From NCBI GenBank assembly GCA_003221985.1, contig QHUQ01000199.1:1-8292 (forward strand): DNA of 8,292 bases, in the 5' to 3' direction. The stretch comes from Gemmatimonadota bacterium (GTDB taxonomy: Bacteria; Gemmatimonadota; Gemmatimonadetes; Gemmatimonadales; GWC2-71-9). The translations under genes and the position numbers were made by a program. The notes under the pieces are model-generated. The model worked only from the letters and a program-made list of their open reading frames with translations. It was not told where the DNA came from and ran no database searches. Below, piece after piece: positions 7,105-8,292 of the stretch. Numbering within the stretch: the first letter of the stretch is position 1; each line of letters opens with the position of its first letter.

Positions 7105-7827
7105 GTGAACGCGTCCCCATTCGTCTTCGGCGTCATCCCGGCACGCGGCGGCTCGAAGGGACTGCCGGGCAAGAATCTCAAGATGCTCGGCGGTCTCTCG
7201 CTGATCGGCCACGCGATCGCCTCGTGCCGTGAGGCCGCACGGTTGTCGCGGTTCATGGTGTCGACGGACAGCGCGGAGATCGCGACGGAGGCGCGCCGTC
7301 ATGGCGCCGAGGCGCCGTTTCTGCGGCCTGCGGCGCTGGCGAGCGACGACGCGGGGATGGTGCCGGTTCTGCAGCACGCCGTGCGGTGGCTCGAGTCGCA
7401 TGGCGGCCCGCGTCCGGATCTCGTCGTGACGCTCCAGCCGACGTCTCCGTTCCGCACGGGCGCCGACGTCGACCGCACGATCGCGAAGCTCCTCGAGACC
7501 GGGGCGGATTCTGCGCAGACGGTGACCGAGGCGACCTATCACCCGTTCTTCATGAAGACGCTCGACGGCGACCGCACCGTCCCGCTCTTCCCCGACGGCC
7601 ACAAGTACGTCCGTCGCCAGGATGCGCCGCAGGTCTACCAGCCGTCGGGCGCCGTCTATGTGACCCGCTATACGGTCCTCATGGACCAGGGACGTGTTCT
7701 CGGCGACGACAACCGGGCGATCGTCATGGGGTTCGAGTCGTCCGTGAACATCGACACCGAGTGGGATTTCATGCTGGCCGAGCTCATCCTGGCGCACGGG
7801 CGCGCCCCCACGCCCCCGCGTCCATGA
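7105..7827 (+). CDS. neuA: CMP-nonulosonate (sialic/legionaminic/pseudaminic acid) cytidylyltransferase, NeuA-like
   Basis: The protein has 240 residues from the GTG at 7105, one base after the previous stop. Conserved sequence begins nine codons in, which fits this start; there is no strong ribosome-binding site, so coupling is likely. The family signature IPARGGSKGLPGKN (11-24) binds CTP. It is followed by VSTDS (52-56), TLQPTSPFR (109-117), PQVYQPSGAVYVT (175-187) and VNIDTEWDF (214-222), which provides late acidic residues for metal binding. The enzyme transfers CMP from CTP to a nine-carbon alpha-keto acid sugar, giving the donor for a transferase. Whether the sugar is neuraminic, legionaminic or pseudaminic acid cannot be decided, so neuA stands for the family. 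Length is normal apart from a Pro/Arg-rich tail RAPTPPRP (233-240). Its stop TGA lies within ATGA at 7824-7827, where the first tandem repeat unit starts. Confidence 0.93.
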   Translation: MNASPFVFGVIPARGGSKGLPGKNLKMLGGLSLIGHAIASCREAARLSRFMVSTDSAEIATEARRHGAEAPFLRPAALASDDAGMVPVLQHAVRWLESHGGPRPDLVVTLQPTSPFRTGADVDRTIAKLLETGADSAQTVTEATYHPFFMKTLDGDRTVPLFPDGHKYVRRQDAPQVYQPSGAVYVTRYTVLMDQGRVLGDDNRAIVMGFESSVNIDTEWDFMLAELILAHGRAPTPPRP

Positions 7828-7912
7828 GGGAACGGGTCTTGGCCGGACGGAGCCACGCCGTACCCACGGCACGCCACCCACGGTGTGTTCCGACCTCACG
7901 GCCCCCGCTACG
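7824..7912 (+). repeat. Tandem repeat unit 1 (89 nt), at the neuA/neuD junction
   Basis: This is the first of two directly adjacent 89-nt units. It starts with ATGAGG, whose TGA is the cytidylyltransferase stop, and ends with CCCCCGCTACG. By eye it differs from unit 2 at seven positions (unit positions 7, 43, 61, 65, 66, 70, 75), so 82/89 are identical. Read from its ATG it is open for 30 codons (beginning MRERVLAGRSHAVP, ending SRPPLR) and stops at the TGA inside the ATGA that opens unit 2. The potential peptide is rich in Arg and Pro. An internal stem is possible: CACGCCGT (7854-7861) with ACGGTGTG (7880-7887), including one G-U pair. I do not recognise the element family. Whether the mini-ORF is translated is unknown. 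Confidence 0.96.
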
Positions 7913-8001
7913 ATGAGGCAACGGGTCTTGGCCGGACGGAGCCACGCCGTACCCGCGGCACGCCACCCACGGCGTGCACCGGCCTCGCGGCCCCCGCTAC
8001 G
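7913..8001 (+). repeat. Tandem repeat unit 2 (89 nt), immediately upstream of neuD
   Basis: This is the second unit, directly abutting unit 1 with an exact 89-base period (ATGAG at 7824, 7913 and 8002). It is open for 30 codons from its ATG (beginning MRQRVLAGRSHAVP, ending SRPPLR), and its TGA (8003-8005) overlaps the neuD ATG at 8002 as ATGA. It forms a better hairpin than unit 1. The outer arms GGCCGG (7930-7935) and CCGGCC (7979-7984) enclose CACGCCGT (7943-7950) and ACGGCGTG (7969-7976). An alternative tight hairpin pairs GCACGCC (7958-7964) with GGCGTGC (7971-7977) across a six-base loop. No T-run follows, so it is not a canonical terminator, and no ribosome-binding site is seen before neuD. 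Confidence 0.96.
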
Positions 8002-8292
8002 ATGAGCCACCGGCTGCTGATCCTGGGGGCGGGGGGCCACAGCCGCGCGGTCGCGGAGCTGGCGAGCGAGGCGGGATGGACCGTGGCCGGATTCACCGAC
8101 CGCGCGGGCGCACCTCGACCGGGGATCCTCGGCACCGACGCGGATGTCGGGGCGCTGGCGCGCGCCGGGAAGATCGATGCGGCGGTCGTCGGCGTCGGCA
8201 ACAGTGCGCTGCCCCGTCGCGCTGAGCTCTTCCGGCTCCTCTACGATTGCGGGCTCGCGACCCAGGCCCTCGTCCACCCCCGTGCGGTGCTC
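8002..8292 (+). CDS. neuD: NeuD/PglD-like sugar acetyltransferase, N-terminal part (cut by window end)
   Basis: The frame is open for 97 codons from the ATG at 8002 to the window end. It begins MSHRLLILGAGGHSRAVAEL, the typical nucleotide-binding-like N-terminal domain of the NeuD/PglD family, continues with VAGFTDR and a conserved VVGVGNSALPRRAELFRLL (about 63-81), and ends ATQALVHPRAVL (86-97), where the domain hands over to the left-handed beta-helix acyltransferase domain. The catalytic hexapeptide-repeat part lies beyond the window. Family members use acetyl-CoA to acetylate sialic acid or UDP-diamino-sugar precursors. Position directly after a CMP-nonulosonate synthetase is classic for neuD in sialic and legionaminic acid clusters. 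The ATG forms an ATGA overlap with the end of the mini-ORF in repeat unit 2, and the sequence just upstream (GCCCCCGCTACG) lacks a ribosome-binding site, so initiation may depend on ribosomes arriving from upstream. Confidence 0.9.
   Translation, partial: MSHRLLILGAGGHSRAVAELASEAGWTVAGFTDRAGAPRPGILGTDADVGALARAGKIDAAVVGVGNSALPRRAELFRLLYDCGLATQALVHPRAVL

Follow-up and report, generated by a model that had tools for sequence, protein, structure and literature searches.

Stop/start relay frames in a dispersed repeat: a probable case of filtering for translational transparency

The tandem repeat that separates a cytidylyltransferase gene from a PglD/NeuD-like gene in the 8,292-nt stretch of DNA analysed here (the window) consists of two copies of a short, dispersed and probably mobile repeat that has multiplied within one bacterial family. 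Comparison of its copies makes it very likely that this is a repeat akin to the Rickettsia palindromic elements (RPEs) and filtered for translational transparency, such that the surviving insertions would largely be those that let translation go on. What would be new is the stop/start relay as a mode of doing so; in-frame repeats as such are already known from Rickettsia and from intragenic REPs.

In the window, the cytidylyltransferase gene (neuA-like; Pfam CTP_transf_3, E 5.5e-17) occupies 7105..7827 on the + strand, with a GTG start at 7105 that is our own reading of the frame and a TGA stop at 7825-7827. Two 89-nt units follow on the same strand and are 92% identical: unit 1 at 7824..7912, made up of a left arm of 23 nt (7824-7846) and a core of 66 nt (7847-7912), and unit 2 at 7913..8001 (left arm 7913-7935, core 7936-8001), the borders of core and arm being taken from an alignment of copies of the family. 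The sequence-only reading of this DNA had reported ATGAG at 7824, 7913 and 8002 with an exact 89-nt period, and so it is found; Tandem Repeats Finder agrees (7812-8013, period 89, 2.3 copies, 89% matches, score 320). Both translations, MRERVLAGRSHAVPTARHPRCVPTSRPPLR and MRQRVLAGRSHAVPAARHPRRAPASRPPLR, likewise confirm the units as stretches of 30 sense codons running from ATGA to ATGA, each ended by an overlapping TGA, and they differ at the five residues counted there. Relay ORF 1 (7824..7916, +; 30 codons and TGA) begins with an ATG that overlaps the neuA stop (ATGA at 7824..7827, +), and ends on a stop that shares a second ATGA (7913..7916, +) with the start of relay ORF 2. Relay ORF 2 (7913..8005, +; again 30 codons and TGA) ends in turn on the start of the PglD-like gene (ATGA at 8002..8005, +). 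That gene (8002..8292, +; Pfam PglD_N, E 1.4e-9) is truncated by the end of the window; in the locus to which the window belongs (L009), a two-step chain of 90+90 nt, the full protein has 209 aa, and element-free relatives start at or near the same residues.

The search of the host genome with the unit that the sequence-only reading had proposed returns 48 matches to one 89-nt unit, beyond what chance would give. The further supposition of a fixed 89-nt unit does not hold: the core measures 66 nt, and the length of a single relay ORF varies between 24 and 459 nt. With a profile of the core (a sequence-only model built from 44 copies) there are at least 127 host matches at E<=0.01, a lower bound because 150 of 13,633 first-look candidates were scored, and the host stretches picked around matches (285 kb) hold at least 118 copies in 86 arrays, 18 of them with 2-4 copies. 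A survey of the class in which the best 54 candidates at most were scored per genome finds the core at E<=0.001 in 40 of the 57 genomes of the host's family and, weakly (5e-5), in 1 of 38 from the rest of the class. In one relative of another genus (G024), at least 124 of the 150 candidates scored match at E<=1e-8, more than in any other of the 13 genomes so searched. When a 39-nt degenerate pattern was run over 84,980 GTDB species genomes, a set that may not include the genome of the window itself, eight stretches matched, all of them in MAGs named Candidatus Rokuibacteriota, the phylum to which the host's family probably belongs as well.

The pattern of the core is ACGGAGCC...CGCACCT or GTACCC...GGCCACCCACGG.GTG..CCGG.CTCGCGG.CCCCGCT(A/C)CA, and many copies carry the left arm, which includes ATGA. 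Variants occur: at L022:2052-2189, and in L028, L029, L021 and L167, an alternative middle module (GCCGACTCACGCAGGCTCGCCTCGCGCGTCGGACGCGCTGCGGCTTCGCACTCCCACGG) lies between the left and right parts of the core, as if a second repeat had been inserted or swapped in, and a stretch resembling this module is also present in L220 (mutS of the relative G001). The first base 3' of the array is A at 25 of 30 arrays inside ORFs and at 69 of 84 sense junctions, which possibly marks a target preference; ACA stands directly 3' of 8 of the 16 host arrays inside ORFs, and junction copies are most often followed by ATG.

At junctions between co-directional genes, as delimited by our own codon-score gene caller, the repeat lies in the sense direction 84 times and antisense 5 times (host 42/4; relatives 42/1, with arrays less than 300 nt from the end of a locus and duplicates left out). 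A fresh set of 60 newly fetched loci from 12 genomes, with three arrays near ends and two already seen left out, yields 33 sense and 6 antisense arrays at junctions, with 2 sense and 7 antisense inside ORFs. Placement is also exact in many cases: the downstream start codon sits at the 3' edge of the core (within 3 nt) in 46 of the 84 sense junctions, and the upstream stop overlaps a start codon in 40 of these 46 edge-start junctions. A Shine-Dalgarno-like motif is found for 3/46 edge-start genes, compared with 15/38 non-edge genes and 89/213 genome starts; its scarcity is expected if edge-start genes depend on coupling, but the repeat itself occupies that stretch. A second class of junction has a core ending in CTACAA, then AGGAG, with the start codon slightly downstream (for example L136, L112, L126, L063, L167 and L037), and here the repeat stands upstream of a Shine-Dalgarno-like site and not of the start codon.

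The central observation concerns reading phase. A relay was scored where a chain of ORFs, joined by -4 or -1 overlaps only, leads from the upstream stop to the downstream start, and random indels of 1, 2 or 3 nt inside the array served as the control. Relays are present in 37 of the 46 edge-start junctions, against 3.2 and 3.8 expected with 1 or 2 nt added. For single copies whose upstream stop overlaps a start codon (n=22) the count is 20 relays against 0.0 and 0.07 expected; for the host, including hisZ, where three ORFs span four copies, it is 20/25 against 2.0-2.6; for the 17 host loci whose gene pair has an orthologous counterpart, 15 against 1.5-2.4; and for the fresh loci, 12 of 18 edge-start junctions against 1.6-1.7. 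An earlier set from which orthologues had been removed still held the orthologous junctions L052, L110 and L178. Once these are merged, along with every other group of junctions in which both flanking proteins match, 65 junctions across all sets become 54, and 41 of the 54 have relays (host 20/25, relatives 12/15, fresh 9/14), compared with 3.9-4.2 after indels of 1-2 nt and 40.4 after a 3-nt insertion. A strict chain is lacking at 13 of these 54 distinct junctions, and non-edge junctions seldom have one (5/38 in the first sets, 3/15 in the fresh set). When the spacer is inverted in place, 8 of the 37 relays remain, so the need for a relay explains the orientation bias only partly. The sequence-only reading had proposed an element that sits at ATGA junctions while keeping the stop/start chain. 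As a sequence pattern, the keeping of the chain is strongly sustained by the merged counts, but the repeat is not confined to such junctions: 38 of the 84 sense junctions have their start off the edge, mostly without a relay, so that what had been named as speaking against that proposal is in part observed.

Orthologous junctions that are filled in one genome and empty in another allow a closer view. Where the repeat is absent, a -4 or -1 overlap is seen in 23 of 39 rows, compared with 50 of 170 repeat-free co-directional pairs in the host stretches, and 12 of the 13 loci compared have a plain overlap in one or more element-free relatives. It had been anticipated that empty sites would show the plain ATGA overlap; this fits most loci, but fits neuA-neuD itself only in part: that junction is repeat-free in nine other places, three with a GTGA-type overlap and six with gaps of 6-8 nt (a further row, L071, mispairs with a neighbouring paralogue and is the same place as L090, leaving nine distinct places). 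Filled rows in relatives keep a chain in 14 of 23 cases, one of which (L241) is a C-terminal extension and not a relay, and have none in 9. At rplD-rplW the copy number is 0 in G014, with plain ATGA, 1 in the host, 2 in G001 and 3 in G003, and every filled version has a single open relay. The element-free versions of secD-secF show plain ATGA in G007 and in two G014 loci and a 7-nt gap in G003; in G001 this junction has three copies and a three-step relay, and the host's copy is without a strict chain.

The repeat is also found within protein-coding genes, where it is in frame on either strand. Of the 86 host arrays, the same gene caller puts 16 within ORFs (7 sense, 9 antisense); a further 15, of which 11 are sense and 4 antisense, are C-terminal, and 6 are N-terminal, although these last may be junctions with a miscalled start; host and relatives together have 14 sense and 16 antisense arrays inside ORFs (n=30). 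Alignment to solved structures places the extra residues in a HisH-like protein (28 residues against 6 in chain 4gud), a UbiD-like enzyme (30 against 10 in chain 2idb) and an RlmD-like enzyme (76 against 15 in 5xj1). Other genes with internal copies look, by eye, like those for HolB, GlnE, HemW and MetG. Orthologues were compared in three same-genus genomes (G001-G003) and two others of the family, and were located through pieces of the proteins, since a whole-locus DNA search in G001-G003 was dominated by matches to the repeat. A 66-nt insert in hemW is shared by the host and G001 and missing from G002, G003, G007 and G014. For glnE the host has two copies and G001 three detected ones, with an adjoining degenerate stretch, and again G002, G003, G007 and G014 have none. 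The host and G001 share the holB insert, which G003, G007 and G014 lack; that of hisH occurs in the host and in both G001 and G002, survives as a shorter remnant in G003, and is absent from G007 and G014. An RlmD/TrmA-like methyltransferase gene at L162:1202-2761 contains four in-frame copies of a shortened unit of about 16 codons, adjoining a YRNKMEFT stretch; G001 has about three of these units, G002 and G003 a short single one, and G014 none.

Several other explanations for the open frames can be envisioned. An ordinary selfish dispersed repeat might owe its phase, without selection, to an inherited left arm and right end that do not vary, and the 90-nt layout common to several single and tandem copies (L009, L011, L014, L200 and L122) is what one ancestral arm-to-end distance would give. 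Copies do share ancestry, so their phases are not fully independent, even with orthologous junctions merged. However, the 37 relays have 29 distinct layouts, in which the upstream stop lies anywhere between 251 nt ahead of the core start and 4 nt past it and the phase is nonetheless kept; the phase is therefore not one inherited length. The change in copy number at rplD-rplW, which retains an open chain throughout, and the small number of chains at non-edge junctions also weigh against simple inheritance, which we consider unlikely. The frames could instead be real small protein genes whose peptide is important, since they are open and coupled at three quarters or so of the distinct junctions (41/54). 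This can hardly be credited: three same-genus orthologous relay pairs, on which the idea of a peptide gene was rejected, show no codon-position constraint, with 15, 12 and 13 substitutions at positions 1, 2 and 3 (counts summed by hand and uneven between pairs, as in L040/L226, where changes are skewed to position 1 at 8, 2 and 2; a fourth pair, L040 with L234, was left out as too diverged and frame-shifted). With the phase kept and the peptide not, it is the reading phase, rather than the peptide, that appears to be selected.

A cis-acting RNA or DNA signal for the downstream gene, such as a terminator, promoter or riboswitch-like leader, would suit the strong sense bias, the exact placement before start codons and the AGGAG that stands immediately 3' of the core in eight arrays. 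It is nevertheless very unlikely, given that the two window units have no stable fold (z-scores -0.75 to 0.86), that 29 aligned copies contain no compensatory pairs (five consensus pairs), that in 7600-8292 Rfam offers no match except one far below cut-off and outside the units, that the same interval has no promoter- or terminator-like site, and that the host arrays inside ORFs lie on either strand; a structured RNA was rejected on the single folds, the alignment fold and Rfam over that interval. GGAG is a variant of the REP tag GTAG, and the core begins with ACGGAGCC and has TG(T/G)AGCG as the reverse complement of its end (TGTAGC or TGGAGC in the commonest copies), so that the repeat might be a REP/REPIN with inverted GGAG/GTAG ends moved by a RAYT (Y1 tyrosine transposase). 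In other bacteria, REPs tagged with GTAG have been described both within ORFs and at their ends (PMC3733652). Set against this, the 29 copies lack compensatory pairs, and PF01797 (Y1 transposase) has no match in the host, with controls positive in 5 of 14, and none in the element-rich relatives G001-G003, G006, G013, G014, G024, G026 and G027. The 11 of 57 family genomes that do have PF01797 have 0-6 repeat matches each. A PF01797 transposase was accordingly rejected as the current mobiliser, and a REP/REPIN origin seems quite improbable. Comparison of filled with empty sites reveals no clean target duplication, the ends of the repeat show about 5 nt of imperfect inverted match, and no long terminal repeats were found. 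The ATGAG copies had been suggested as target duplications, and in the window and at hisZ the left ATGAG does resemble the downstream start, but copies with the same arm at L011 and L023 have unrelated downstream starts; ATGAG therefore reads as part of the element, and the suggestion has been abandoned.

Among known systems, the RPEs are the closest likeness, judged from their descriptions: they are short dispersed repeats found in frame in unrelated conserved protein genes and also between genes (PMC10969869, PMC2229807). The sequence-only reading drew this parallel loosely, and it proves closer than supposed, as the arrays inside host ORFs, the insert-free orthologues and the structure alignments all point to in-frame insertion in conserved protein genes here too. 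The differences lie in the phylum, in the absence of a detected stable palindromic fold, in tandem in-frame expansion and in how closely copies fit stop/start junctions, with relay ORFs across them. REPs have dispersed copies between co-directional genes and some inside ORFs (PMC3733652), and REP, BIME and REPIN elements thus have in common with this repeat both junction and intragenic placement, as well as inverted GTAG/GGAG near both ends; here, however, no conserved imperfect palindrome adjoins the tag, the host and element-rich relatives are without a Y1/RAYT match, and junction orientation is tied to reading phase. MITEs with ORFs (the Correia 107-bp form, ERIC and QMITE1) are non-autonomous and can fuse in frame with genes (PMC2229807, PMC10969869); in the present repeat we saw neither extended inverted repeats at the termini nor a distinct target duplication, and found no parent transposon for it. 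Gene overlaps are known from experiments in E. coli and Haloferax to couple translation (PMC6728339, PMC10666635), and about 20 nt between genes nearly abolishes coupling (PMC10666635). The same -4 and -1 overlaps as in coupled ATGA or TGATG pairs recur at each relay step here, with the difference that both flanks of the repeat retain or restore the overlap, turning one coupling into two or more. Within the literature on Rokubacterial repeats and coupling-linked repeats, with subscription papers mostly outside its range, no account was found of a dispersed repeat with stop/start relays.

The preferred reading, a mobile repeat filtered for translational transparency, can be laid out as follows. 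Inside a gene, an in-frame insert on either strand would yield a longer protein, and the phase rule may well extend to these gene-internal copies. Between coupled genes, a sense copy would place a start codon over the upstream stop (ATGA), an open frame would cross the repeat, and its stop would overlap the next start. If an insertion split a coupled pair, the second gene would be starved of ribosomes unless these were passed on, and the relay would do precisely this. For the window this would mean that ribosomes finish neuA at 7825, make two peptides of 30 codons each and start afresh on neuD at 8002. The relay ORFs are presumed to be translated, and their phase is probably maintained because uncoupling or polarity is selected against, rather than because the host gains from it. 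There may be more to the repeat than this. In an extended version, about which our opinion is evenly balanced, it would represent a class of mobile repeat transparent to ribosomes, open in most frames, with a stop/start pair of its own and a manner of stacking that keeps phase; core operons such as rplD-rplW, secD-secF and hisZ would tolerate such repeats, and the number of translated relay ORFs would set the ratio of the neighbouring proteins.

An insertion in an operon is commonly supposed to uncouple its genes and silence those downstream; in this one repeat family, with its dozens of natural cases, the chain is most often intact. The empty, single-copy and multi-copy versions of one junction amount to a natural experiment on selection for the reading phase of overlaps, and because copy number varies, termination-reinitiation becomes testable step by step. 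If the reading proposed here is right, in-frame decoration of proteins by repeats would be extended to another phylum, and the family would show a route by which a repeat may spread through dense genomes.
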